A stretch of 64,000 bases of DNA from Xanthomonas sp. NCPPB 1128 (GTDB lineage Bacteria > Pseudomonadota > Gammaproteobacteria > Xanthomonadales > Xanthomonadaceae): contig NZ_LFME01000001.1 in NCBI RefSeq assembly GCF_001043115.1, positions 186,001 to 250,000 on the forward strand, written 5' to 3'. Numbering within the stretch: the stretch's first letter is position 1; every line of letters begins with the position of its first letter. This document shows, in pieces, positions 42,799 through 64,000 of the stretch. The notes beneath the pieces were generated by a model. It searched no databases. It saw nothing but the letters and a program-made list of their open reading frames with translations, and was not told where the DNA came from. Both the position numbers and the translations under genes were made by a program.

Positions 42799-42957
42799 GC
42801 GGCGCCTCGGCGTCGACAAGGTCGATGCCGATTGTCTGGCCGCGTGGCAGCGACACATGCGCCACGTTGGCTGACGGCCGGCCATCCGCCGGCGCGCACA
42901 GGCGCGACAGCCACGGCGAATTGGGCTACAAAGCGCACTGGTTTCCCGAGCTGTGCC

Positions 42958-43452
42958 ATGACGCTTCCCACCGATTCGGAGTTGTTGCAACAGGCCACCG
43001 CGCTCAGCGACCGCTTGCGCACCGCGCGCGAGCGCCTGGTCACCGCCGAAAGCTGCAGCGGTGGCTGGATCGCCAAGGTGATGACCGATGTCGCCGGTTC
43101 CTCCGCCTGGTTCGACTGCGGCATCGTCGCCTACAGCTACGAGGCCAAGCAGGCGCTGCTGGGCGTGCGCCCGCAGACGCTGGAGCATCACGGCGCGGTC
43201 AGCCGCGAGACGGTGATCGAAATGGTGTCCGGCGCGCTGGTCAATTCCGGCGCCAGCGTCGCGGTCGCGGTGACCGGCATCGCCGGCCCCGGCGGCGGTT
43301 CCCCGGACAAGCCGGTCGGCAGCGTGTGGCTGGGCTGGAAGCGCCGCGGCGGCTACGCCAGCGCGCAGTTGTTCCACTTCCCGGGCGACCGCGACGCGGT
43401 GCGCCGGCAGACCGTGGCGGCGGCCTTGCGCGGTTTGGACGCGCTGCTGTGA
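42958..43452 (+). CDS. pncC: CinA C-terminal-domain nicotinamide-nucleotide amidase, 164 aa
   Basis: Stand-alone PncC domain that deamidates nicotinamide mononucleotide in NAD recycling. Family motifs: LVTAESCSGGWIAK at the N-terminus, YSYEAKQALLGV and the VTGIAGPGGGSPDKPVGSVW core. Length matches the short, single-domain form. The ATG at 42958 gives this start; the longer frame from 42832 is unlikely. It stands upstream of lexA-recA, as in related genomes, but an ABC1-kinase gene intervenes. Confidence 0.92.
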   Translation: MTLPTDSELLQQATALSDRLRTARERLVTAESCSGGWIAKVMTDVAGSSAWFDCGIVAYSYEAKQALLGVRPQTLEHHGAVSRETVIEMVSGALVNSGASVAVAVTGIAGPGGGSPDKPVGSVWLGWKRRGGYASAQLFHFPGDRDAVRRQTVAAALRGLDALL

Positions 43453-43477
43453 CTGCGGTCGCGCGCCTGCTCCGAGG

Positions 43478-45163
43478 ATGAGCGCGATGTGGGAGGCGTT
43501 GAGCACCGTCCGCGACCTGGGACGCCTGCAGGAAATCGCCTCGGTCCTGATCCGTTACGGCTTCGGCGACGTGGTCCGGCGCATCGGCATGGCCGACGTG
43601 CTGGAACGTGCCGGGCGCCTGCTGCACTGGCACAACGCCGAAGAGATGCTGCGCATGTCGGCGCCGCAGCGGGTGCGGCGCGCGCTGCAGGACCTCGGCC
43701 CGACCTTCGTCAAGCTCGGCCAGGTGCTGGCCACACGCGTGGACCTGCTGCCGCCGGAGTGGATCGACGAACTGGGCGAACTGCAGAACGCCGCGCCGGC
43801 GCTGGACTACGTGCAGATCCTGCCGCAACTGATCGAGGCGCTCGGCGAGGAACCGACGGCGATCTTCGCCAGGCTCGAGGAAACCCCGCTGGCCGCCGCC
43901 TCGCTGGCGCAGACCCATCGCGCCTGGCTGCACGACGGCACCGCAGTGGTGATCAAGGTGCGTCGCCCCGGCATCCGCGAGGTGATCGAGGCCGACCTGC
44001 GGCTGCTGGCGCGACTGGCGGAGATCGTCGAAGCGCGCGCGCCGGACCTCAAGCGCTACCACCCGGCCGCGGTGGTGCAGCAATTCACCCTGTCGCTGCG
44101 CCGCGAGCTCGATTTCGCTGGCGAATGCCGCAACGCCGAGCGCATCGCGGCCAACTTCCAGGGACACGACGAGATCGTGATCCCGCGGGTGCACTGGCAG
44201 TGGACCTGCGAAACCTTGAACGTGCAGGACTTCGTCGACGGCATCGGCGGCCGCGACCTGGCCGGGGTCGAGGCCGCTGGCCTGGACCGTCGCCAGTTGG
44301 CGCGCACCGGTGCCGACATCGTGCTGAAGATGGTGCTGGAGGACGGCTGCTTCCACGCCGATCCGCATCCGGGCAACATCTTCTACCTGCCCGGCGAGCG
44401 CATCGCGGTGATCGACTTCGGCATGGTCGGGCGCATTTCCGAGCAGCGCCGCTACCAGGTGGTGCAGCTGCTGCACGGGTTGGTCACCCAGGACGCAGAG
44501 GCGGTGGCCGACATCCTGCTGGAGTGGACCGACGGCGAGGTCGAGGTCGACGAGGCGCGCCTGCAACTGGAGATCGCCGCCTTCGTCGACCAGTACCGCG
44601 GCGTGCCGCTGAAGGACCTGCGGGTCGGCGCCATGCTCGGCGACGTCACCGCGCTGCTGCGCCAGCACGCGCTGGCCTTGCCGGCCGACCTGGCGCTGAT
44701 GATCAAGACCTTCCTGACCCTGGAAGGCGTCGGGCGCCAGCTCGATCCGGACTTCGACATGGCCGGCGCCGCCGCGCCATACCTGGAGCGGGTGATGCTG
44801 CAGCGGTTCGCGCCGCGGGCGATGGCCCGGCGCGGCCGCCGCACCGTGCTGGGCGCGCTGGAACTGCTCGGCGACCTGCCGCGCGATACCCGCCGGCTAC
44901 TGCAGGCGGCGCGGCGGGGGCGCCTGCAGTTGAACGTGGAGACTGGCTCGCTGAAGGGCTTCGGCGACCAGGTCAACCGTGCCGCCAACCGCCTGACCAT
45001 GGGCATCGTCACCGCCGCGCTGATCATCGGCTCGTCGATCGTGATGAACAGCGTCGGCGGCATTTCCAGCCGCTGGCTGCTGGCCATCGGCGTCTGCGGC
45101 TTCGTCGGCGCGGCGCTGTCGGGCGTGTGGATCCTGTTCTCGATCTGGCGCAGCGGGCGCTGA
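43478..45163 (+). CDS. ABC1/AarF/UbiB-family atypical kinase, 561 aa
   Basis: Protein-kinase-like ATPase of the UbiB family, associated with ubiquinone biosynthesis or lipid transport. The diagnostic KxGQ motif (FVKLGQVLATR, about residue 78), the SLAQTHRA Ala-rich loop, VVIKVRRPGI (lysine), the catalytic ADPHPGN and DFGMVGR motifs are seen. Two hydrophobic helices end the protein (about 505-525 and 530-552), as in UbiB. The start at 43478 (MSAMWEAL) is 25 bases after pncC. Whether this is the Q-biosynthesis UbiB or a paralogue cannot be decided. Confidence 0.9.
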   Translation: MSAMWEALSTVRDLGRLQEIASVLIRYGFGDVVRRIGMADVLERAGRLLHWHNAEEMLRMSAPQRVRRALQDLGPTFVKLGQVLATRVDLLPPEWIDELGELQNAAPALDYVQILPQLIEALGEEPTAIFARLEETPLAAASLAQTHRAWLHDGTAVVIKVRRPGIREVIEADLRLLARLAEIVEARAPDLKRYHPAAVVQQFTLSLRRELDFAGECRNAERIAANFQGHDEIVIPRVHWQWTCETLNVQDFVDGIGGRDLAGVEAAGLDRRQLARTGADIVLKMVLEDGCFHADPHPGNIFYLPGERIAVIDFGMVGRISEQRRYQVVQLLHGLVTQDAEAVADILLEWTDGEVEVDEARLQLEIAAFVDQYRGVPLKDLRVGAMLGDVTALLRQHALALPADLALMIKTFLTLEGVGRQLDPDFDMAGAAAPYLERVMLQRFAPRAMARRGRRTVLGALELLGDLPRDTRRLLQAARRGRLQLNVETGSLKGFGDQVNRAANRLTMGIVTAALIIGSSIVMNSVGGISSRWLLAIGVCGFVGAALSGVWILFSIWRSGR

Positions 45164-51206: not shown

Positions 51207-51299
51207 GGAGTGATGCCCGAGTGGCTGAAGGGGCTCCCCTGCTAAGGGAGTATAGGGTCAAAAGCTCTATCGAGGGTTCGAATCCCTCTCACTCCGCCA
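51207..51299 (+). tRNA. tRNA-Ser(GCU)
   Basis: A 93-base cloverleaf: acceptor GGAGTGA pairing with TCACTCC, a type II long variable arm, anticodon stem CTCCC/GGGAG with loop CTGCTAA so the anticodon is GCT (51241-51243), T-loop GTTCGAATC, discriminator G and encoded CCA at 51297-51299. Type II structure with GCU identifies tRNA-Ser. It marks the junction with the accessory PKS region. Confidence 0.97.
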
Positions 51300-51308
51300 G
51301 TGTCAAGA

Positions 51309-51345
51309 AACGCCCGCAAATCAACGATTTGCGGGCGTTTTTCTT
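51309..51345 (+). terminator. rho-independent terminator after tRNA-Ser
   Basis: Perfect 14-base-pair hairpin AACGCCCGCAAATC / GATTTGCGGGCGTT with loop AAC and a T-rich tail, ten bases after the tRNA. Confidence 0.93.
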
Positions 51346-52805
51346 TTGGGCGACCTTTGCACTTTCGTGCGAGTCGCGCACTCTCCCGTGCGCGGGGAGG
51401 TCGGCCGCTACGATGCTCGGTCGCGCCTCGGTCGCGCTTCGGCGCAAGTTGGGAAAGCGCACTACACGCACGAGGTGTGATCGCGCCCGCGCTTGGCAAC
51501 GCGCTGCTGCAGCGCTCGCTGGCATCAGGAACGGCAATGCGGGCTCAGCGGCTGGAGTCGCTCCTGAGGAGTCCGGAACAGGGTTTCCTCATCCCGGTTG
51601 ATATCCAAGGCATGAAGCCGCCGGGCGGCGTCTGCTGTGCTGGGGGCGGATGGTGCGAAGCTGTGCGCCGTGTGGCCGCACGATAGCTGATGCCGACGAA
51701 TCCCCGCTCTGCTGACCTTCCATGCTCTCAATCCCTGTCTGTCGCATACGCCCAAGTTGAGAATGCTCAGCATCGCCGCTCAATGCTGGTAGTGAAGGTT
51801 CGGATCTTGGGGTGTCTGGAGACTTGGGCTGGCGCGGTGCAAAGCGAACATTGGTGCTGCTGATTGAGCTGGGAAATCTCAGCGACGTTGCAGGAGTAGT
51901 CGTCAGCCGAGCTGGTGAGCCACCGGTGCTTTGCCGTGGTCCGCTGACAGTCGGATGTGCCACCTCGGTTCCAGGCCCGTCTCCTAGCGCAACGGCCGAG
52001 CATCCTGGCTCAAGCGACAGGACTCGCCAGCATCGCTATTGATGTCTGCAATGGATGTTCGAGCCGAAACGAATAGGGAAACCCTTACGGTTGGTGCGCG
52101 CTGATCTATGCAATGCCAGTCAAGCTGAGCGAGGAAGGGGCATTGGTCTGCTGGAGAGTTGCGTAGGGATATCCAGAGTCTCGTGCCAACCAAGTTGCGA
52201 GGATGAAATGAGGCGCAACGATGCGGCCGAAGTATCACGTGGTTGTGCAGGTGCAGTAGCCAGGTCTGGTGCTGATTGCTGCTTGGATAATTATCTAGTG
52301 GCGTAATGAAGTGGTGTCCTGAGGTCTGACCTAGGATGCATATTGTAATTTTATTTACTTTGTTGCATGTTTTTCTTATTTAAAAATAACTTTTCTACGA
52401 TATTCAAAATTTTGTGGGGCGTGATTTGGTGGCGTCGCACAACTTCTGCGATGTCTTTTCGTAGAAGCCTAAGCAACTCTATTGCGCGTATCATTCATTC
52501 GCGAGGTTAACAACCCGAACAACTGCTCACGGCATCATCGCCTACGTGGCAAGTGGATTCTTTCGAACTAGGTAGTCCAGGCGGGCTCCATGTGCGATTG
52601 GACAAGAAATGAGTCCATCCGTAGCGTCGGCCTTGCTTGATTTCTCATCTGTCTACGGATTTTCCCGGTGGGTGTGCTATCAAGCAGAGTATTGATGGGT
52701 GATCCGCTCAAGTTCAGATGATCCTCTGTGGGGACAGAAGGATGTCGTCATTCTCTAAAGGAATGACGCCGGCACCATCGCGATACAGAAGAAGTTTGGG
52801 GCGAT
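51346..52805. other. 1.46-kb gene-poor junction between tRNA-Ser and the PKS gene
   Basis: No convincing gene is visible; the short open frames (for example 51589-51963 minus and 51812-52042 plus) have no domain or ribosome site. Base composition changes along it: GC-rich at the left, then strongly AT-rich at about 52270-52500 (TTTTATTTACTTTG, TTATTTAAAAATAAC), unlike anything else in the window. The right end carries the putative operator at 52746-52768 and the start of the PKS gene. No exact repeat of the tRNA 3' end was noticed within the window. The region is likely an island boundary with eroded sequences plus a regulatory leader. Confidence 0.6.
52746..52768. promoter_or_regulatory. inverted repeat upstream of the PKS gene
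   Basis: CGTCATTC-N7-GAATGACG forms a perfect eight-base inverted repeat, 37 bases before the PKS start codon. No T run follows, so a terminator is unlikely; an operator for a dimeric regulator or a leader hairpin is inferred. Confidence 0.45.
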
Positions 52806-55800
52806 ATGGATACCGCGATTATTGGAATGGCATTCCGATTTCCAGGGGCGAACGACACTGCGACGTTCTGGAAAAATTTGATTGACCGTAAATCGAGTGT
52901 GACCGAGATTCCATCGCAACGCTGGGATTGGCGTAGTGTATGGGGCGATCCAAAGAGCACTATCAACAAGACTGATAGCAAATGGGGCGGATTCATCGAC
53001 GCGGTCGACGCGTTCGATCATGAATTCTTCGGTTTCCTGCCCAAGGTTGTGCAGTCCATGGATCCGCAGCAGCGGATCATGCTCGAGCTTGCCTGGAATT
53101 GCATGGAAGACGCTGGTGTAGCGCCTTCGAGCGTGCGCGGGCGCAAGATCGCCGTTGTCGTCGGGGTCTTCAATCACGACTACAAGGAGTTGCAGGAGCG
53201 CGACGAAATTTCGATCGAAGCGCATCATTCCACCGGTACCGCGACGGCAGTGATCGCCAATCGCGTGTCGCATTACTTCGACTTGCGCGGACCTAGCGTT
53301 CCGATCGATACGGCGTGTTCAAGTTCGCTCAATGCGATCCACAGCGCCATCCAGGCCTTGCAGTACGACAATTGCGAGATGGCGCTCGCCGGTGGCATTA
53401 ATCTGATGTTGACGCCCACCCGACATATTTCTTTCTCGAAGATGGGCATGCTCTCGCCGAGCGGCATCTGTAACACCTTCGACGATGCTGCTGACGGTTA
53501 CGTGCGCGGCGAAGGCGCGGCGTTTTTGCTGCTCAAGCCGCTGGAGCGCGCTATCGCCGACGGCGACGCGATCCATGGCGTAATCAAGGGCTCCGCGGTC
53601 AATCACTGCGGTAGCACCTATACCTTGACTTACCCGAGTCCGCAGGCGCAGGCCGAGGTCATCATGGCCGCGCACCAGCGCGCCGGCGTGGCCGTCGACA
53701 GTCTTGGATTCGTCGAACTGCACGGCACTGGCACGCCGAAGGGTGACCCGATCGAATTCGAAGGTCTGCTGCAGGCTTTCGGTGGCTTGGCGCGCAAGCA
53801 GGGCATCGAACTGCCGTCCGCATACTGCGGCGTGAGCTCGGTGAAAACCAATATCGGCCATCTCGAAGCGGCCGCCGGCGTGGCCGGCGTGATTAAGGTG
53901 TTGCTGGCGATGCGGCATCGTCGTCTGCCGCCGTTCCAGAATTTCGCCCGGCTCAACCACCGTATTGCTATGGATGGCACGCCGTTCTATGTCCTCGATG
54001 CCAGCCGCCCCTGGCTGCCACTTGCGCCAGGACAGCCGCTACGCGCCGGTGTGAGTTCGTTCGGATTCGGCGGCACCAATGCTCACGTGATTCTGGAGGA
54101 GGCGCCGGCGGTGCCGGTCCGGCGCGGCGTCGGCCGTCTTCGCAGCGATGAACCCGTGTTGATCGCCTTGTCGGCCAAGACCGCCCCGGCCCTGCAGCGT
54201 CGCATCGCGACGCTGCGCGATTGGGCGCGTGACGATGCAGGACGGACGCGGCTGACCGATGTCAGCCAGACCTTGCTAATGGGTCGCGACGCGTTGGCTT
54301 GCCGGTTCGCTTGCGTGGTGGATAGCCCGGCGGCATTGCTGGATGCACTGAATCAAGCGATGGATGTGGATACCCATGGCGCCGCCACGCCAGATAGTGC
54401 GGACGCCGAAGCGCTGCAGGCGCTGCTGTCGAAATGGCCAAAGCTGAAGAAGCAGGCGCGCATCGACGCGATGAGTGCTCTGGCGAACGCTTTCCGTGGC
54501 GGCGCGAAGCTGTCGTGGTCGCCGTTGTTCGCTGGCGTGTCGGCGCAGTCCGTGCGACTGCCCGGCTACCCTTTCAAGGGCGCGACCTTCTGGACGCCCG
54601 CGTCGATCACAGCGGATTTGCGCGGCGAGGCCCAGGCCGAAGCTCGCCTGCATCCGCTGCTGCACCGGAACGTGTCCGTCCTCGGTCAGCAGCGCTTCCG
54701 CTCGACCTTCGGCGGTCGCGAATTCTTCCTTGCCGATCACGTCGTCGATGGCCGCTCGATCCTGCCTGGCGTGGCATACCTGGAAATGGCGCGTGCCGGC
54801 GCGAATCTTGCGCTGGCCAATGCTGCCGATGCGGGGGCCGGATCCACTGTCAGCTTGCACGATGTGGTCTGGCAGCGGCCGCTCGAAGTGAAGGACGCCG
54901 AGGTGTCGGTCGAGTTGGAGTTGGACGCATCCGACGACGGTATGGCACAGAGCGCCGCCCCGGCCCATCTGCGGTTTCGCGTCGTTGACACGCAAACGCG
55001 GGAATCGGCGCATGTGTACTGCCAGGGTCGCCTGCATGTCGATCGGGATGCCGGCGAAATGCTGGTGGATGTCGAAGCGATCGGCAACGACTGCATGGCC
55101 GGCCTTGTCGACTCGGTCGCCTGCTACCGTGGCCTGGCCGGCTTGCAATTGCAATACGGACCGATGCACCAGGCGATCGTCGATGTGCGCCTCGGCGCCG
55201 GTCAGTGCCTGGCGCGGATCGTGTCGCCCACACAGCGTTCGGGCGGCGACGCGGCGTTCGTCGTGCATCCGAGTACAGCCGATGCGGCGCTGCAGGCGGC
55301 AGTGGTACTCGCGTCCGCCATCGACGCGACCAGCGCACCGCGCGCGCATGCGCCGTGCCTGCCGTTCGCCTTGGATCGCCTGGATGTTGTGGATGCGGGG
55401 AAGGGTTGCAATCCGAGTGCAACCGAACTGTACGCTTGGGCGCGATTCGCGCCGACCTCATCCAGCGGCGAGCGAGTTTCCCGTCTCGATATCGATCTGA
55501 TCGAGTGCGTGCCTGGCCAGTCCGTCGGCCGCGTGCGACTGGCGTTCCGTGGGTTGAGCTTGCGCCCGCGCATGGCGCAAACCTCGCCGGTGCAGGCTCC
55601 CAAGGCATCTGCGATGCGTCTTCCATCCGAATCGATTGCCGGTGATCTGTACGCGCCGTTGTGGGTGCGGGCGGCGATACCGAGCGCGGCGCAGGCGCCT
55701 GCGATGGTGGTGATGATCGGCGAGCGGGAGGATCTGGACAGCCTGCATACGGTGCTCGCGCGATCTCCGCGGTTCGCCGGCACGAGTTTCGAACGCTTGC

Positions 55801-58800
55801 CGGTTCTGGCCGCGGGCGCCGGACTGGCACCGGAGGAGCAGGGCAACGCCCTTCGCGCCGGATCGCTCGCCGATGCCGAGGCCGCGATCGGGGCCTGGAA
55901 AGCCCGCGGCGCACAATTGGAATACTTCGTTTGGGTCGCGCCGAAGCCTAGCGAGAACCTGTCCGTGCAGGCGCGCATCGACGCTGGCGCGCGTACCGTG
56001 TTCGCGCTGGTCAAGGCGATGCTGCGCGGTCCAAAGCGCGCACGCTTTGTGCATCTGAACCACTGGGACATCGATGGCGCGCCCGACCGCAACGGCCTCG
56101 GCGCCACCGACGTCATCGCGCTGGCCGGGTTCTACAAGACGCTGGCGATCGAAAAGCCGAGTTTCAGCGGACGCGTCGTGCAATGCCCGACCGATAGCGC
56201 TAGCTGGGCCGACCTGGTCGCCGACGAATTGCTCGCCGACGATAAAGTCACCGACGTGCGCTATCGCAACGGCCTGCGCGAGACGCGCCGGTTCGCGTCC
56301 GTGCATTCGAGCCTGTTGCCGGCCGCGGTGCATACGGGCAGCACGGACTTTCGAACGGAGGGCGCGTATCTCATTACCGGCGGATTGGGGGCGCTTGGCC
56401 TGATCGTCGCCCGCCATCTGTGCGAGCGCTATCGGGCCACGGTATACCTGACCGGTCGCAAGCCGCTGTCCGAGGCGCAGCGGCCGACGCTCGAGGCATT
56501 GGCCGGCCTGGGCGGTCGCGCGATGTATTTCGCCTGCGATATCACCGATCGCGATGCGGTGCGGCAGGTCTTTGCGACGATCCGCGAGGATCTGCGTCAG
56601 CACGATCAAGTGCTGAATGGCGTGCTGCACTCGGCCGGGGTCATCGAAGACGATTTCCTGCTGCGCAAGCCCGCCGAAGCGTTCGCGCGGGTCATTGCAC
56701 CCAAGACCCTGGGCGTCTGGTGCCTGGATCAGGAAACGCAGCACGATCCGCTGGATCTGTTCGTGTTGTTTTCATCCGTTACCGGCGTGCTGGGCAATGT
56801 CGGGCAGAGCGACTATGCGTTCGGCAATGCGTTCGAGGATGCGTTTTCGGCGATGCGCGAGACGCTGGTCGCAGACGGCCAACGCAGCGGCAAGTCGGTG
56901 TCGATCAACTGGCCGTACTGGCAGGACGGCGGCATGCGCCTTGGCGAAAAGGAAGAGGAAGCCTTGCAGCGCAGTTTCGGGATCGTGCCGTTGACGACTC
57001 AGCGCGGTATCGAGGTGCTGGACTACGCGATCGCGCAGGCGCAGCCGCAAGTCGTGGTGATGCCGGCTGGCGATATCCATAAGGTGCGTGAAGTGCTCGG
57101 CGTGATCGCCGAGGATCGCCAGCCAGCGGCCCCTTCGATCGCCATCGCTGCGTCCCCCGGCGAGGGGCATGCCGATGACGCTCCTTCCAACTGGCATGCG
57201 CTGACATCGAGTTTTCTCGCGAATCTGTTCGCCTCGCAGCTTGGAATTTCCGCCGACTTCGAGCCCGAGCGCTCGTTCAAGGAGTACGGCTTCGATTCGG
57301 TGGTGATGATCGATCTCATCGCCGATCTGGAAAAATCCTTCGGCACGCTGCCGAAGACCCTGTTCTTCGAATACCAGACGCTGGGTGAACTCAGCGGTTA
57401 CTTCATCGAACACCATCCGGACCGGTGCCGCGCGATCGCGCGCCCCACGCAAGCCGTCGTCGACATCGGCGTGGCAACGAGTGCATACGCGGCCTCTAAC
57501 GCGCCGCCTGCGCCGGTCGTCGCGCACGACTCAGGGCGCGCTGCCGCCTACGCGGTGTCGTCGCCAAGCCGCAGCCGTGCCACAGAGCCGGCAGCCCCGC
57601 CACACCGCGACGACATCGCGATCATCGGTCTGGCAGGCCGCTATCCGCAGGCGGAAACGCTGGAGGCGTTCTGGGACAACCTGCGGCTGGGCCGCGACTG
57701 CGTCGAGGAGATTCCTGCCGAGAGGCCGGATCTGGCGGCGAAGTTCCGTTTCCAGCCGGGCGAAGCGACGCGCGCCAACAGCTACAGCCGTTGGGGCGGT
57801 TTCCTGCGCGGCGTCGACCAGTTCGATCCGCTGTTCTTCAATATCTCGCCCAAAGAAGCAGAGAACATCGATCCAAACGAACGCCTTTTCCTGGAGATCG
57901 CCTCGCAGGCGATCGAGGATGCCGGCTATACGCCGGACACGCTGGCGCAGGCGCGTGGCCATCGCGAAAACCCGGTCGGCGTGTATGCCGGTCTGATGTG
58001 GGGCGATTACCAGCTGCATGGCGTGGATCGTCCACGCGACAGCTGGGTTGTGCCGCACAGCTTCTATTGGGCTGTCGCCAATCGGGTTTCGTATCAGTTC
58101 AATTTTTCCGGTCCGAGTCTGACCATCGACACCGCCTGTTCGTCCTCGTTGACCGCGATCCATCTCGCCTGCCAGGCGATCGGCGTGGGCGAGATCGACG
58201 TTGCCATCGCCGGTGCGGTCAACCTGTCGCTGCATCCGAACAAGTACAACCTGCTCTCGGACATGCATTTCCTGTCCAGTGACGGCCGCTGCCGCGCTTT
58301 CGGCGAGGGTGGCAACGGCTATGTGCCCGGCGAAGGTGTCGGCGCGGTGGTGTTGAAATCCCTGGCTCAGGCGCGTCGCGACGGCGACCACATCTACGGC
58401 ATCATCCGCGGCTCGTCGATCAACCACGGTGGCAAGGCCTCAGGTTTCACCGTGCCAAATCCCAAGCGTCAAGCGGCGCTGGTGCAAGAGGCGCTGGATG
58501 CGGCGGGCGTGGATCCGCGCCATGTCAGCTATGTCGAGGCGCATGGCACCGGCACGAGCCTGGGCGATCCGATCGAGGTCGCAGGCTTGACCAGGGCCTT
58601 CGCCCAAAACGAGCATCAGTACTGTGCGATCGGTTCGGCCAAGTCCAATCTGGGCCATCTCGAGGCAGCGGCCGGCATCGCCGGCTTGACCAAGGTGCTG
58701 CTGCAGATGCGGCATCGCAGTCTGGTGCCATCGATACATTCCGATACCCCCAATCCCTACATCGACTTCGCGCATAGTCCGTTCCGCGTGCAGCGCAGCT

Positions 58801-61800
58801 TGCAGCCGTGGTTGCGTCCGGTCGTCGAACAGGCCGGAACGCGCAGGGAACTGCCGCGACTGGCGGGCATCAGCTCGTTCGGTGCCGGCGGCAGCAACGG
58901 CCATCTGATCGTCGAAGAATACGTCGAGGAGGCTCGCGGCGACTCCGGCGCCGATGCACCGGTCGTCGTCGTGCTGTCCGCGCGTCGCGACGCTGCCTTG
59001 CGCGAAATGGCCGGGGGGTTGGCCCAGCGTTTGCAGGACGATCCGACCATCGGTTTGCAGGATGCGGCGTATACCTTGCAGATCGGCCGCATCGCGATGG
59101 AAGTCCGCGTTGCTTTCGTCGCGGCATCGCGGCGCGAGTTGCTGGATGCGCTGCGCCTGTATGCGGAGAAGGGGCTGCTGGCCACGCAAGCCTGGTCCGG
59201 TCATCGCGATGCCGCCAAACGCGACCCTGCGGTAGCCGCGCGCGGCGCCGCCGCTGCGGCGCGGCTGTCGGAATCGCTGGCCGCTCGCGATCTGGCCGCT
59301 CTGGCGCAGGCCTGGGTGGACGGCGTATCGATCGATTGGCGTGCGTTGCATGTCGCCGGCAGCCGGCGTCGCGTGCCATTGCCGGGATATGCATTCCAAC
59401 GCCAACGTTACTGGGTCGAGACATCGGACGCCGATGCCAGCGGTGAGGGTGGTGTCGCCGCATTGCATCCGTTGATCGACGCCAATGTGTCCACCCTGGA
59501 AGAACAGGCCTTCCTGAAGACGTTTCGTTCCGACGCGTTCTATCTGCGCGATCACCGTTTGGGCGATAACCGTGTCCTGCCGGGTGTGGTGTATCTCGAA
59601 CAGGCCTTGCAGGCGGCACGTCTGGCCGCGCCCGGCCGGGTGGTGATGGCGATCGAGGACGTGCATTGGTATAGGCCGATCATCGTCAACGATTTGCCAC
59701 AGACCGTGCGGATTTCGCTGCTGCCTGAGCGTGGAACGGTGGCTTTCGCTATCGATGCCTTCGGCGGTGATGCGCAGCAACCGTATGCCGATGGCGCGAT
59801 CGTGCTCGGCGATGCTTTCGTGGCTGGCGAGGTCGCAGGCGTGGATTTGGCCGCGATTTCGGCTCGAACGGCCGCACTCGACGGCGTCGACGTGGAGGCG
59901 GTGTTCTCGGCCATGGGCTTCTCCTTCGGCGAAAGCTTCCGGGTCTTCGAAAGTCTGCGTCACAATGCCGACGAGGCACTGGGCGTGATGCGCCTGCCGC
60001 GTATTGTCGGCGTGGAGGCGGGCGATTTCGTGCTGCATCCGGCGCTGATCGACGGCGCCATCCGGGTCAGTCTCGGTGTCGGCGGGTTCAGCGCGAGCAC
60101 CGGTGGTATCCGCGTACCGGTACGGTTACGCCGGATCGAGATCCTCGCGGTCCCGGGCGAACAGGTGTTCGTGCATGCGCGCAGGAGCGGGGTCGTGCAG
60201 GGGACAACGACGCCTGAGCAGTCGCACTTCGACCTGAGCGTATGCGATGCGCAGGGGCGGGTCATGGTGCGCATCGAACAGCTCACCATTCAGTCTGCGC
60301 CGCAGCTGTCGCTGCTCGCACGTGCGCGTACGGCGCCGAAACCGATGACGACCAAGGTCCTGCCGGCGACGATGCAGTCGCCCGCGGTCACGTCGGCGGC
60401 CACCACGCTTGTGCCGCAAGCGCTGCAGGCGACCGCGACCGCGCGCCTGGTCGAATTGCTTGCCAACGTCACCAAGCTTGCGCCAGCGCAGATCGATCCG
60501 CATGCGCCGCTGGAAAACTACGGCATCGATTCGGTCATGATCGCGGGCTTGAACCGCGAGTTGGAGCTGCGTTTCGGAGAAGTGCCCAAGACGCTGTTCT
60601 TCGAGTACCAGGAACTGTCCGGCATCGCCGGCTACCTTGCGGAAAATCACGCCGAGATATTGAGCGCGATGGCGCCGGCCGTGGAGATACAGGTGCCAAC
60701 GACGCAAGCCGTCGCTGTAGCGCAAGTACCGCTTATCTCTGCAGGTGCCCCGAGACTCGCCGCGCAGGAGTTCTTGCGCCGCATCCTGGGGGAAACGGTT
60801 GGCCTGGGTCCACACGACATCGATCCGCATGCACCGCTGGAGCACTACGGCATCGATTCGGTGATGATCGTCAAACTGACAGGGCGTCTAGAGGCGGCCT
60901 TCGGCGCGGTCTCCAAAACGCTGTTCTTCGAATACCAGGACGTCGCCAGTTTGGCTGAGCATTTGGCCGAGACCTTCCCGGAGGCCGCTCAGTCCTTGGC
61001 CGGAGCCGGCTCCGCGGCCGCGCCGACCGCATCGATCGCGTCCGCCAGCCCGAGCGGCGAAGTGCCGTCGGCCGCGGAAGGCGACGATATGGGCGTGCAG
61101 GACCATCTGTTCCGGCAACTGCGGCGGATTCTCGGCGCGGAAGCCGCGAACTGCGGCATCGGCACGCCCATCGCGCATTGGCCGCTGGATGCGGTCAATA
61201 TTCTCATGGTGCTGCATGCCTTGGCGCAGGATTTCGAAGGCGTGGACGCGTCCGCTCCCTACCGCCACGACACGCTGGCCGATTGGGCTGCCGAACTGCA
61301 TTGGCGGGACGGACGCGCTGAGCAGATCCGCGCGGAACTCCATGCGCAGACAAGCGCACCGAATCCGATGCCCGTGCGAGGGCGCGCGCTCACCGCTTCC
61401 GGCGAATTCCGCCGTCTGCGCGGCGGTTCGGATCGCGTCGAGCCGGAAGACATCGCCATCGTCGGCCTCAGCGGCCGCTATCCCGGTGCGAACGATCTGC
61501 ACGCGTTCTGGCAGAACCTCTCGTCCGGCTGCGACAGCATCAGCGAGATTCCGCTATCGCGATGGGACCATGGCCGTTACTTCCACCCCGATCGCACGCT
61601 CAAGGGCGCGGTCTACAGCAAGTGGGGCGGATTCATCGACGGCGTGGATCAGTTCGATGCGCGCTTCTTCAATATTTCCGCGCGCGAGGCCGAACTGATC
61701 GATCCGCAGGAACGCTTGTTCCTGCAGACCGCGTGGGAGTGCGTCGAGGACGCCTGCCAGACCCGGCAGTCGCTCAAGGGCCGGTCGGTCGGCGTGTACG

Positions 61801-64000
61801 TTGGGGTGATGTGGGGCTACTACGCTCAGATCGACGTCACCGACGAGCAGCTCAAGTCGGGTCGGCCGAATCCGCCGTTTTCCTCGATCGCCAACCGCGT
61901 TTCGTACTTCATGAATTTCAACGGCCCGAGCATGGCCGTCGATACGATGTGCTCCTCGTCGCTGACCGCGATCCATTTGGCATGCCGCGCTATCCGCAAT
62001 GGCGATTGCGAGATGGCGATCGCCGGTGGCGTCAACGTGATCGTGCATCCTAACAAGTATCAGACGTTGTCCGCCGCGCAGTTCCTGTCCAGCGACGGCC
62101 GCTGCCGCGCGTTCGGCGCCAACGGCGACGGTTACGTGCCGGGGGAGGGCGTCGGCGCGATAATGCTCAAGCGCTTGAGTCAGGCGATCCAGGACGGCGA
62201 CCACGTCTACGGCGTGATCAAGGCGACCAGCCTCAACCACGGCGGAAAGACCAACGGCTACACCGTGCCGAATCAGGTCGGGCAGACCAATGTGATCGGC
62301 AAGGCGCTCAGCCAGGCCGGTTGGGACCCACAAAGCATCGATTACATCGAAGCGCACGGTACCGGCACGTCCTTGGGCGATCCGATCGAGATCGCCGGGC
62401 TGACCCGCGCATTCGATACGGCATCCGCATCCTTCGGCCGCGGTGCGGAATCGGGTCGCCAGAAATGCCGCATCGGTTCGGTCAAGTCCAACGTCGGCCA
62501 TCTGGAGTCGGCCGCGGCGATCGCCGGATTGACCAAGATCCTGCTGCAGTTCCGCCACGATGCCATCGCGCCGTCATTGCACGCTTCGCCGGCGAATCCG
62601 AACATCGACTTCGCCCAGGCGCCTTTCCGCGTAGTTCAACAACAAGAGCCCTGGATCGCGATCGGCTCGCGCAGCCCGCGCCGCGCCGGCTTGAGCTCCT
62701 TCGGTGCGGGCGGCGCCAACGCGCATTGCCTGATCGAGGATCATCCACGAACCTTGCCGGCGGCCGCCGACGGCCGGCCGGTGCTGTTCGTGCTGTCGGC
62801 CGATGGGGAAGAGCGCCTGATGCGCTACGTCGATCGCATGATCGCATTCCTGGAGCGCGGCGGCGATCCGGATGTCGGCCTGGACCTTCGTTCGCTCGCC
62901 TATTCCTCGCAGATCGGCCGCGAGGCGATGGACGAGCGCCTCGCGGTCGTCGCGACCAGCGTTGCCGATTTGCTGGATGCGCTGCGCGCTTGTCGCGCTG
63001 GCTCCAGCGCCGAGGGCGTTCTGCGCGGGTCGCCACGCCGTCAAGGCGAGAAGCTCGAAGCCATCGTCGGGGAAGGCGAGCGCGACGCGATCATCCGTGG
63101 CTTGATCGCTGGCGGCCGCTTGCCGCAGTTGGCGCGCGCCTGGGTGTCGATGCTCGACGTGGATTGGGCGCGCTATGTCGACCTCTTGTATCCGCTCGCT
63201 GATGGGGGCGCCCGACCGTATCGCATGCCGTTCCCGACCATGCCCTTTGTCACGCAGCGTTACTGGGTCGACGAGAGGCGCAGCGATGCGGTTGCCGATG
63301 CTCCACATCCGCTGATCGACCGCAACCATTCCACTCTCGCCGCGCAGATCTACCGCAAGCGCTTCGATGGCCAGGAATTCTATCTGCGCGACCATATCGT
63401 CCATACCGATCGCGACCGCAAGATTCTGCCTGGCGTGGCCTATCTGGAAATGGCGCGTGCGGCCGGCGATCTCTCCGCGGGAGAAGGCTGGCGCGTGTCA
63501 CGTATCCGCAATTTCGCCTGGCGGCAGCCGTTCGAAATCGTCGGCATGCCCGATGCGCTGACGATCCGCATGCACAGCGACGAGACCGGATTGCAGTTCG
63601 ACATCCTGCGTGAGTCCGATGCTGCGATCTGCGCGGACGGCGAACTGGTATTCCAGGGTGCCGACGACGAGGTCGCCGACGAATGGCTGGATATTCAAGC
63701 CATCGTCGCACGCGGGGTCCGCATCGAACGCGATTCGGAAGAGATCTACTCGGCATTCCGTCGCATGGGGTTCCATTTCGGCCCATCCTTCCAGGTCACC
63801 CAGGCTCGCTATCGACTGGCCGAAGGCGCGCTATGCGAACTGCGCCTGCCTGCGCATCTGCGCTCGGGCATGAGTCAGTTCGGTCTGCACCCTTCCTTGC
63901 TCGATGCGGCGTTGCGCGCTGGGCTGGCGGTCGAAGTGGCCGGTAGCGGCGATCCGGTCGTGCCGATCGTGCCGTTCGCGTTGGACGAAATGGAGATTCG
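52806..64000 (+). CDS. giant trans-AT type modular polyketide synthase, partial, >3,731 aa
   Basis: One open frame from the ATG at 52806 to the window edge. Visible domains: KS1 (1-430; Cys171, His306, His352), DH1 (about 610-900; His645, Asp826), KR (about 1185-1420; TGGLGALG at 1191, Tyr1337), ACP1 (Ser1498), KS2 (about 1600-2040; Cys1778, His1913, His1951), DH2 (about 2215-2490; His2250, Asp2416), ACP2 (Ser2576), ACP3 (Ser2685), a third carrier-like domain with Ala2796 in place of Ser, KS3 (about 2880-3320; Cys3049, His3184, His3232), DH3 (from 3500; His3530, Asp3700). Between KS and DH only a short linker ending in LPGYPF/LPGYAF is seen, with no GHSxG acyltransferase, so malonyl units should come from a separate AT. 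The only KR carries GVIEDD and no type-A Trp, suggesting a B-type (D-hydroxyl) product. No loading domain precedes KS1. The product is unknown. Confidence 0.95.
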   Translation, partial: MDTAIIGMAFRFPGANDTATFWKNLIDRKSSVTEIPSQRWDWRSVWGDPKSTINKTDSKWGGFIDAVDAFDHEFFGFLPKVVQSMDPQQRIMLELAWNCMEDAGVAPSSVRGRKIAVVVGVFNHDYKELQERDEISIEAHHSTGTATAVIANRVSHYFDLRGPSVPIDTACSSSLNAIHSAIQALQYDNCEMALAGGINLMLTPTRHISFSKMGMLSPSGICNTFDDAADGYVRGEGAAFLLLKPLERAIADGDAIHGVIKGSAVNHCGSTYTLTYPSPQAQAEVIMAAHQRAGVAVDSLGFVELHGTGTPKGDPIEFEGLLQAFGGLARKQGIELPSAYCGVSSVKTNIGHLEAAAGVAGVIKVLLAMRHRRLPPFQNFARLNHRIAMDGTPFYVLDASRPWLPLAPGQPLRAGVSSFGFGGTNAHVILEEAPAVPVRRGVGRLRSDEPVLIALSAKTAPALQRRIATLRDWARDDAGRTRLTDVSQTLLMGRDALACRFACVVDSPAALLDALNQAMDVDTHGAATPDSADAEALQALLSKWPKLKKQARIDAMSALANAFRGGAKLSWSPLFAGVSAQSVRLPGYPFKGATFWTPASITADLRGEAQAEARLHPLLHRNVSVLGQQRFRSTFGGREFFLADHVVDGRSILPGVAYLEMARAGANLALANAADAGAGSTVSLHDVVWQRPLEVKDAEVSVELELDASDDGMAQSAAPAHLRFRVVDTQTRESAHVYCQGRLHVDRDAGEMLVDVEAIGNDCMAGLVDSVACYRGLAGLQLQYGPMHQAIVDVRLGAGQCLARIVSPTQRSGGDAAFVVHPSTADAALQAAVVLASAIDATSAPRAHAPCLPFALDRLDVVDAGKGCNPSATELYAWARFAPTSSSGERVSRLDIDLIECVPGQSVGRVRLAFRGLSLRPRMAQTSPVQAPKASAMRLPSESIAGDLYAPLWVRAAIPSAAQAPAMVVMIGEREDLDSLHTVLARSPRFAGTSFERLPVLAAGAGLAPEEQGNALRAGSLADAEAAIGAWKARGAQLEYFVWVAPKPSENLSVQARIDAGARTVFALVKAMLRGPKRARFVHLNHWDIDGAPDRNGLGATDVIALAGFYKTLAIEKPSFSGRVVQCPTDSASWADLVADELLADDKVTDVRYRNGLRETRRFASVHSSLLPAAVHTGSTDFRTEGAYLITGGLGALGLIVARHLCERYRATVYLTGRKPLSEAQRPTLEALAGLGGRAMYFACDITDRDAVRQVFATIREDLRQHDQVLNGVLHSAGVIEDDFLLRKPAEAFARVIAPKTLGVWCLDQETQHDPLDLFVLFSSVTGVLGNVGQSDYAFGNAFEDAFSAMRETLVADGQRSGKSVSINWPYWQDGGMRLGEKEEEALQRSFGIVPLTTQRGIEVLDYAIAQAQPQVVVMPAGDIHKVREVLGVIAEDRQPAAPSIAIAASPGEGHADDAPSNWHALTSSFLANLFASQLGISADFEPERSFKEYGFDSVVMIDLIADLEKSFGTLPKTLFFEYQTLGELSGYFIEHHPDRCRAIARPTQAVVDIGVATSAYAASNAPPAPVVAHDSGRAAAYAVSSPSRSRATEPAAPPHRDDIAIIGLAGRYPQAETLEAFWDNLRLGRDCVEEIPAERPDLAAKFRFQPGEATRANSYSRWGGFLRGVDQFDPLFFNISPKEAENIDPNERLFLEIASQAIEDAGYTPDTLAQARGHRENPVGVYAGLMWGDYQLHGVDRPRDSWVVPHSFYWAVANRVSYQFNFSGPSLTIDTACSSSLTAIHLACQAIGVGEIDVAIAGAVNLSLHPNKYNLLSDMHFLSSDGRCRAFGEGGNGYVPGEGVGAVVLKSLAQARRDGDHIYGIIRGSSINHGGKASGFTVPNPKRQAALVQEALDAAGVDPRHVSYVEAHGTGTSLGDPIEVAGLTRAFAQNEHQYCAIGSAKSNLGHLEAAAGIAGLTKVLLQMRHRSLVPSIHSDTPNPYIDFAHSPFRVQRSLQPWLRPVVEQAGTRRELPRLAGISSFGAGGSNGHLIVEEYVEEARGDSGADAPVVVVLSARRDAALREMAGGLAQRLQDDPTIGLQDAAYTLQIGRIAMEVRVAFVAASRRELLDALRLYAEKGLLATQAWSGHRDAAKRDPAVAARGAAAAARLSESLAARDLAALAQAWVDGVSIDWRALHVAGSRRRVPLPGYAFQRQRYWVETSDADASGEGGVAALHPLIDANVSTLEEQAFLKTFRSDAFYLRDHRLGDNRVLPGVVYLEQALQAARLAAPGRVVMAIEDVHWYRPIIVNDLPQTVRISLLPERGTVAFAIDAFGGDAQQPYADGAIVLGDAFVAGEVAGVDLAAISARTAALDGVDVEAVFSAMGFSFGESFRVFESLRHNADEALGVMRLPRIVGVEAGDFVLHPALIDGAIRVSLGVGGFSASTGGIRVPVRLRRIEILAVPGEQVFVHARRSGVVQGTTTPEQSHFDLSVCDAQGRVMVRIEQLTIQSAPQLSLLARARTAPKPMTTKVLPATMQSPAVTSAATTLVPQALQATATARLVELLANVTKLAPAQIDPHAPLENYGIDSVMIAGLNRELELRFGEVPKTLFFEYQELSGIAGYLAENHAEILSAMAPAVEIQVPTTQAVAVAQVPLISAGAPRLAAQEFLRRILGETVGLGPHDIDPHAPLEHYGIDSVMIVKLTGRLEAAFGAVSKTLFFEYQDVASLAEHLAETFPEAAQSLAGAGSAAAPTASIASASPSGEVPSAAEGDDMGVQDHLFRQLRRILGAEAANCGIGTPIAHWPLDAVNILMVLHALAQDFEGVDASAPYRHDTLADWAAELHWRDGRAEQIRAELHAQTSAPNPMPVRGRALTASGEFRRLRGGSDRVEPEDIAIVGLSGRYPGANDLHAFWQNLSSGCDSISEIPLSRWDHGRYFHPDRTLKGAVYSKWGGFIDGVDQFDARFFNISAREAELIDPQERLFLQTAWECVEDACQTRQSLKGRSVGVYVGVMWGYYAQIDVTDEQLKSGRPNPPFSSIANRVSYFMNFNGPSMAVDTMCSSSLTAIHLACRAIRNGDCEMAIAGGVNVIVHPNKYQTLSAAQFLSSDGRCRAFGANGDGYVPGEGVGAIMLKRLSQAIQDGDHVYGVIKATSLNHGGKTNGYTVPNQVGQTNVIGKALSQAGWDPQSIDYIEAHGTGTSLGDPIEIAGLTRAFDTASASFGRGAESGRQKCRIGSVKSNVGHLESAAAIAGLTKILLQFRHDAIAPSLHASPANPNIDFAQAPFRVVQQQEPWIAIGSRSPRRAGLSSFGAGGANAHCLIEDHPRTLPAAADGRPVLFVLSADGEERLMRYVDRMIAFLERGGDPDVGLDLRSLAYSSQIGREAMDERLAVVATSVADLLDALRACRAGSSAEGVLRGSPRRQGEKLEAIVGEGERDAIIRGLIAGGRLPQLARAWVSMLDVDWARYVDLLYPLADGGARPYRMPFPTMPFVTQRYWVDERRSDAVADAPHPLIDRNHSTLAAQIYRKRFDGQEFYLRDHIVHTDRDRKILPGVAYLEMARAAGDLSAGEGWRVSRIRNFAWRQPFEIVGMPDALTIRMHSDETGLQFDILRESDAAICADGELVFQGADDEVADEWLDIQAIVARGVRIERDSEEIYSAFRRMGFHFGPSFQVTQARYRLAEGALCELRLPAHLRSGMSQFGLHPSLLDAALRAGLAVEVAGSGDPVVPIVPFALDEMEI

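Follow-up and report, generated by a model that had tools for sequence, protein, structure and literature searches.

A solanimycin-type PKS-NRPS cluster beside tRNA-Ser in a Xanthomonas strain may work by way of a free polyene amino acid

The window analysed here, a stretch of 64,000 nucleotides from Xanthomonas sp. NCPPB 1128 (positions 186001-250000 of contig C1; the genome, 4.95 Mb, is split into 71 contigs), holds the first gene of a solanimycin-type hybrid cluster that would work by a polyene amino acid monomer route. We place the probability of this reading at roughly 0.6 and infer the chemistry from sequence. That the cluster belongs to the solanimycin (sol) core is nearly certain. The wider proposal, which we hold to be only a little better than an even bet, is that the trans-AT polyketide synthase (PKS) line, an alpha-oxoamine synthase (AOS) and an SDR form a portable unit that supplies a free polyene beta-hydroxy-alpha-amino acid. 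A dedicated clade of adenylation (A) domains would insert this residue at one or several internal positions, even shared between two NRPS lines of one genome, so that a diffusible monomer, in place of chain transfer, would link PKS and NRPS. Both the starter chemistry and the NRPS loading of solanimycin, a potent antifungal, are unsolved. Should the core make a free amino acid, a single enzyme and a single A domain would suffice to test the loading step. If the proposal is true, the P450 step could be taken out of the published scheme or placed elsewhere in it, the A-domain code flags polyene-amino-acid peptides in Lysobacter, Collimonas, Cellvibrio and Xanthomonas-type genomes, and a trans-AT PKS serves as an amino acid supplier. 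The precedents known to us for a PKS in that role are fungal only, for example the Bmt residue of cyclosporin.

Coordinates are C1 positions minus 186000, a numbering carried past 64000 as extended positions; 80 kb was read rightward. The SolA-like PKS gene runs on the forward strand from an ATG at 52806 in an open frame to the window end at 64000 and on to extended 68996 (5,396 aa), which bears out the sequence-only reading of a single PKS gene longer than 11 kb. The layout given there for the three modules was also right by Pfam and sequence, all domains lying on the forward strand. Module 1 consists of KS1 (52806-54095; Pfam and motifs; best PDB match 7ZMA), DH1 (54651-55595), KR1 (56361-56927) and ACP1 (57213-57410; GFDSV), the last three by Pfam. 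Module 2 has no KR and comprises KS2 (57609-58910), DH2 (59463-60335) with altered HxxxGxxxxP and D/Q motifs, ACP2a and ACP2b (60438-60980; GIDSV; Pfam), and a degenerate third ACP (61083-61295) with Ala for the serine of its DSL motif (LDAV; PLDAVNIL). KS3 (61446-62750) is followed by DH3 (63303-64000, by Pfam), which is cut by the window edge. The complete Cys-His-His triad described for the three KS domains in the window is present (DTACSSSL, DTACSSSL and DTMCSSSL; ELHGTG/EAHGTG; NxGHLE). Past the edge the gene continues with KR-ACP-KS4 and a half condensation domain. The Cys and both His residues are kept in all four KS domains; KS4 has a variant TACSGG motif, lacks the usual Asn preceding the second His and has no ACP behind it. 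Pfam gives no acyltransferase match in the full 5,396-aa protein and a discrete AT-AT gene lies downstream, in agreement with the earlier assignment as a trans-AT PKS. The C-terminal tail that follows the half condensation domain, LxMRxKxExRxxFWK, is kept in 12 clusters, is looser in two Cellvibrio rows, and is a possible docking element.

Most of the cluster lies past the right edge, as had been anticipated, with its end near extended 91,600. The PKS gene is followed by a SolB-like SDR (extended 68997-69983), a SolC-like AOS (extended 70046-71290; 412 aa), a SolD-like free ACP (extended 71385-71642) and a SolE-like tandem AT (AT-AT, extended 71663-73507), the discrete AT scoring 383.7 bits against the fabD model (cut-off 260.9). 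Next come an NRPS-ABC fusion (extended 73565-85009), an ABC-2 permease (extended 85006-86073), HlyD (extended 86539-87594), RND (extended 87665-90718) and an Sfp-type PPTase (extended 90761-91588). Both the trans-AT and the PPTase that the sequence-only reading had proposed to look for on the right are therefore in place; no thioesterase is found among the Pfam matches of the NRPS. A broken gene between PKS and AOS was considered and rejected, the SDR there being intact.

Genes 1-5 correspond to solA-solE in order and in domain layout. One of the two findings that the sequence-only reading had named as refuting it, near identity with a cluster whose product is known, is thereby largely in hand. 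Table 1 of PMC9765074 gives SolA as KS-DH-KR-T-KS-DH-T-T-KS-DH-KR-T-KS, followed by SolB (epimerase/dehydratase), SolC ('aminotransferase'), SolD (ACP) and SolE (AT-AH). The Xanthomonas PKS has the same layout with one extra degenerate T in module 2, and the solB-solC-solD-solE order is the same. Identity to the cluster of Rouxiella badensis DSM 100043, which PMC9765074 names as a carrier of the solanimycin cluster together with Pantoea sp. A4 and Erwinia sp. ErVv1, is 44.8% for SolA (5,480 columns), 53% for SolB, 73% for SolC, 50% for SolD and 51% for SolE. SolA domain order and solA-solE gene order are thus shared with Dickeya solani MK10, Pantoea sp. A4, Erwinia sp. ErVv1 and Rouxiella badensis as described in PMC9765074 and PMC10204066. 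The shared features extend to the domain at the end of SolA, given as unknown in the published description and a half condensation domain by hhalign, and to a half condensation domain at the start of the NRPS. The remainder differs. By A-domain codes there is no SolF/G/H-type NRPS with Gly (FMO), Ser and Val modules; the published line is X-Gly(FMO)-Ser-Val, whereas here it would be Ala-Ths-Ser-Ala-Ths-X, where Ths is the polyene residue. SolI P450 and the other tailoring genes are absent from the cluster, with no SolI orthologue in the genome and no adjoining SolJ, SolK or MATE gene; the ABC-fused NRPS, HlyD/RND and PPTase stand in place of SolJ, SolK and MATE. Since NRPS and tailoring genes differ, the product would be a relative of solanimycin and not solanimycin itself. 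The compound had been called unpredictable. This no longer applies to the PKS part, for which PMC10204066 points to a polyene amino-hydroxy-acyl unit as in solanimycin, while the peptide part does differ.

The C1 copy of the NRPS has three modules and is joined in frame by an Ala/Pro-rich linker to its ABC ATPase (extended 84000-85009). This three-module form is probably a collapsed assembly repeat, judging from contig C58 (L091; 9,090 bp), which would carry the inner modules. Its frame is open throughout and reads A2-half, T, C, Ser-type A, T, C, Ala-type A, T, C, A2-half. Both ends of C58 lie inside A2 and are exact matches to C1 for at least 127 bp, with about 410 bp between them (extended 78077-78489). 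Along its whole length C58 shares 90% identity with the inner modules of G018, the other carrier in the genus. The collapse would have occurred at A2 because the two A2 domains are nearly identical. With C1 and C58 read as separate pieces, the modules in nature probably run Ala - Ths - Ser-like - Ala - Ths - unknown (DMKDYGMVDK), the arrangement found in G018, a single-contig genome; the residue names are predictions from codes. A loss of three modules by the NRPS was rejected, as the modules are present on C58. In G018 the two A2 domains differ by less than 1% in protein by branch lengths, as if kept alike by conversion. The NRPS-ABC fusion also occurs in G018 (cluster 42936-43892) and on contig C12 of G092; in Collimonas the ABC ATPase is a separate gene overlapping the NRPS.

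Comparison by hhalign with a profile (template length 460) built on 19 C-type domains from the clusters places the SolA end at template 195-450 only (probability 99.1) and the NRPS start at 192-438 only (probability 99.9). The HHxxxDG motif is at template position 141, outside both ranges, and both domains are therefore C-lobes without the catalytic half. The absence of a catalytic C domain ahead of the first NRPS module fits an A-T starting module. The terminal domain of the NRPS aligns to template 1-422 (probability 90.1) and keeps a DHLISDG motif.

These parts suggest the following mechanism. The three-module PKS and the trans-AT would build the C14 hexaenoyl chain that is known from shunt products in the solanimycin work, and KS4 and the free ACP would offer it to the AOS. 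The AOS would join the chain to a small amino donor, for which aminomalonate would fit, giving a 2-amino-3-keto acid that the SDR would reduce to the polyene beta-hydroxy-alpha-amino acid called 'Ths' in the solanimycin paper. The dedicated A-domain clade, with its unusually roomy pocket, would activate Ths and load it on NRPS modules, at positions 2 and 5 of six in the Xanthomonas line. The terminal condensation-like domain would release the product, which the ABC and RND systems would export. The identity of the monomer in the Xanthomonas strain is assumed from the conserved core.

SolC, although published as an aminotransferase, is by its best-scoring models and catalytic residues a member of the AOS family. 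AOS enzymes form a C-C bond between an acyl thioester and an amino acid. The protein matches 15 NCBIfam families, the best being bioF, BioF/Kbl, glycine C-acetyltransferase and serine palmitoyltransferase, and none of them reaches its cut-off. All 50 of 50 PDB sequences matched at E <= 1e-20 are named as AOS-type enzymes, and the catalytic His, Asp and Lys (H150, D227 and K260, counted along the 412-aa query) do not vary in any of the 17 sequences compared. The SgaAB sphinganine pathway of Pseudomonas fluorescens MYb115, as outlined in PMC12134224, likewise uses an AOS to join a polyketide acyl chain to an amino acid, the ketone presumably being reduced by an SDR; it differs in its iterative single-module PKS, serine partner and two-gene cluster.

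The authors of PMC10204066 propose another route, in which the chain is extended and stays on its carrier, the P450 SolI oxidises C2, SolC transaminates, SolB reduces C3 and the acyl unit is handed directly to the NRPS as an N-terminal cap. We consider this unlikely, though two results in the solanimycin papers speak for it. Deletion of solI abolishes activity in Dickeya (PMC9765074), and deletion of solF yields tetradecahexaenal (PMC9765074, PMC10204066), an aldehyde and not a free acid, for which reason activation of the free acid by the first A domain of SolF (A1) was weighed and disfavoured (PMC10204066). The genes solB, solC, solD and solI are all described as essential (PMC9765074, PMC10204066). 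For solE the accounts differ, with no loss in PMC9765074 and much reduced activity in PMC10204066. A transaminase role sits poorly with the AOS assignment of SolC, and the P450 does not belong to the core that the carriers share. We searched 15 genomes, 12 of them with the sol core, with PF00067 at E <= 1e-10; the core carriers G020 and G026 gave no match at this threshold, with two and one first-look candidates below it. Eleven of 14 core carriers have no SolI orthologue. The three that do (80-100% identity) include R. badensis, where the match has one internal TGA; eight of the 14 have no SolI match at E <= 1e-5, and the non-enterobacterial carriers G021, G022 and G023 have only 25-29% matches elsewhere in the genome. 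The P450-transaminase route therefore cannot serve all carriers, if all make the same unit.

The monomer route agrees with two shunt products, the hexaenal and the aminomethyl ketone formed on deletion of solB (PMC9765074, PMC10204066). With aminomalonate as donor, the product would be precisely the keto acid from which this ketone arises by loss of CO2. Sphingofungin is reportedly a precedent for aminomalonate as donor. No aminomalonyl genes were seen in the Xanthomonas cluster, and the authors of PMC10204066 state the same for the solanimycin cluster. According to that paper labelled glycine is absent from the N-terminal unit of solanimycin and labelled serine is hardly incorporated, so that glycine is excluded as donor in solanimycin and aminomalonate derived from serine or glycine is disfavoured. 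These label results count against the monomer route, as do the aldehyde from solF deletion, the requirement for solI in Dickeya, the distant P450s in G021, G022 and G023 and the two in G000, and the lack of an ACP behind KS4.

The A domains speak for a free monomer. PMC10204066 reports no clear predicted substrate for the first A domain of SolF. We read ten-letter codes by anchor positions, and modules 2-4 of three enterobacterial clusters, used as control, gave Gly (DILQLGLIWK), Ser (DVWH[VM]SLIDK) and Val (DALWFGGTFK) as published; one code position varies between readings through alignment shifts. Outside the Xanthomonas-type genus, A1 reads DA[GA]A[LMV]A[GA][IV][LM]K in all 11 of 11 clusters (G020, G022, G026-G030, G316, L021, L023 and L025, some closely related). 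In G000 and G018 it is the second A domain that reads DAGALAGILK, the first being of Ala type (DLYNNALTYK). This internal placement behind an Ala-type module, in both Xanthomonas-type clusters, is hard to reconcile with the published hand-over of an N-terminal cap. The special domain occurs twice in G018, G020, G022, G026, G030, G316 and the C12 cluster of G092, and once in the three enterobacterial clusters. The 22 special domains form one clade, with support 100/100, in a tree of 79 A domains, and the summed side-chain volume of their pockets (859-943) is the smallest, the others with a full code having at least 967.

Restriction of this clade to sol-core carriers points the same way. An A-domain search of the family matched 116 of 395 genomes; among the 30 loci read, one per genome, seven had the code, all from AOS carriers, and none of the 23 without it came from an AOS carrier. 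The eighth AOS carrier of the family, G300 (the same as G030 by coordinates), has the special domain and lies outside the 30 loci. In a phylum sample 37 of 398 genomes matched with the A domain, and the code was found in none of the 29 loci read besides our own one. The clade (DA[GA]A-A[GA]) serves as a mark of sol-core carriers: it turned up in none of the 52 control loci, whose A domains, the only ones read from those genomes, were aligned to A2 for the code, so that an individual letter may be wrong. A very stringent search of the class matched our own genome only among 369 and was left out of the controls.

A further carrier, the 99% complete metagenome-assembled genome G092, has one AOS match (E <= 1e-130) and a full sol-type cluster on C12. 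A second NRPS with seven modules is encoded with ABC transporter genes at C33:48756-71393 (L128, L094, L129). It contains a DAGALAGILK domain 67% identical to the Xanthomonas one, and in the 60 kb read of this 160-kb contig nothing scores above 45 bits as KS, AOS or AT. For a PKS-free NRPS with the special A domain, hand-over of a PKS chain at the N-terminus, as in the published route, is not an easy explanation, and a shared free amino acid can be one.

The clade might instead activate some ordinary amino acid, or an unrelated one, with the PKS product as no more than an N-terminal cap and the co-occurrence a matter of common descent. The same code at position 1 could indeed reflect descent and not use, and descent alone could explain why the clade is seen only with the core. 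We regard this as more doubtful still than the published route, given that the measured structure of solanimycin leaves A1 no residue of its own except the polyene unit, that the code with its very small pocket residues is conserved across distant genera, and that second copies exist as well as one in a separate NRPS. Very improbable is the usual AOS reaction, in which the amino acid loses its carboxyl and the aminoketone is reduced by the SDR to an amino alcohol joined to the peptide through a carbonyl (urea-like): its elemental composition, as counted, equals that of the proposed unit, decarboxylative chemistry is normal for the family and the solB deletion strain does contain the aminomethyl ketone, yet no glycine label reached this portion of solanimycin, no carbonyl-inserting enzyme was seen and the A-domain clade is left unexplained. 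Release of the PKS chain as a sphingoid amino alcohol on the terminal C domain of the NRPS was dropped after the solanimycin data. A spliceostatin-type cluster, known from Xanthomonas cannabis and likewise a trans-AT PKS in Xanthomonas, was rejected, as it has 13 modules compared with three here (PMC7930024).

A scan of GTDB species genomes with the AOS (SolC) returned 22 loci. Twelve (L019-L030), from Lysobacter, Lysobacterales, Collimonas, Gynuella, Cellvibrio, Rouxiella, Erwinia and Pantoea, are 72-88% identical and all 12 have the order PKS end - AOS - AT as far as each stretch reaches; eight clusters read further have the core in common. The uncharacterised Lysobacter, Collimonas and Cellvibrio clusters share the full core, with AOS 74-86% identical, the special A domain twice in G020, G022, G026 and G030, and a terminal C domain and exporters in some, but differ in NRPS length and in the other residues. 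PMC9765074 names L. enzymogenes GLE_2101-2102 and C. arenae LT85_1869 as best matches, and the uncharacterised trans-AT PKS-NRPS clusters reported in a Lysobacter genome-mining preprint (PMC11451712) may include the Lysobacter sol-type ones. Three loci (L031-L033; Chitiniphilus, Lautropia) have an AOS at 55-62% next to an ABC gene and an NRPS whose A code is DVAAIGVV[LM]K, with no matching PKS within the stretch examined; they possibly make a related amino acid from another acyl source. The remaining seven (L034-L040) are distant at 34-37% and form another branch, which we take to be of the PigH type, and a prodigiosin-type PigH reading of SolC was rejected. Within the genus, a SolC homologue is present in two of 20 genomes at 99-100%, and three further genomes match at 39% only, which led us to reject a host housekeeping role for the AOS. 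In the family, eight of 395 genomes have one (E <= 1e-130). A plasmid search with the AOS gave 685 matching records, all below 60% identity. Among the open-access papers searched, we recognised none on this Xanthomonas cluster; 'Xanthomonas' is absent from the main text of PMC9765074, and those papers that name both solanimycin and Xanthomonas do so incidentally.

The cluster sits beside a tRNA gene, as the sequence-only reading had claimed: tRNA-Ser(GCT) at 51207-51299 on the forward strand forms its left border, with the PKS start at 52806. The Xanthomonas-type host named there fits as well, and genomes of the same family include named Lysobacter records. The 1.5 kb between tRNA and PKS (51300-52805) has 55% G+C; no convincing gene was found in it, and Rfam matched nothing other than the tRNA. 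Homology with cluster-free relatives stops at 51363 (G011) and 51347 (G012), 48-64 bp past the tRNA, and returns at 92431 and 92443, respectively; G011 has one 80-bp homologous patch near 51433 inside the otherwise non-matching stretch. G+C content is 49% at both cluster borders compared with 69% in the flanks. A search for exact same-strand repeats of the tRNA end (12-25 bp, downstream to extended 144,000) found none at the far border. The cluster occupies the tRNA 3' end in some genomes, including the same tRNA-Ser site in G018, and is absent from others, as for a tRNA-borne island. In other genomes of the genus this site holds different inserts, and a second copy of the tRNA 3' end is present in seven relatives (G002-G004, G009, G010, G014 and G015). 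The tRNA-Ser site (51207-51363) looks like an integration hotspot.
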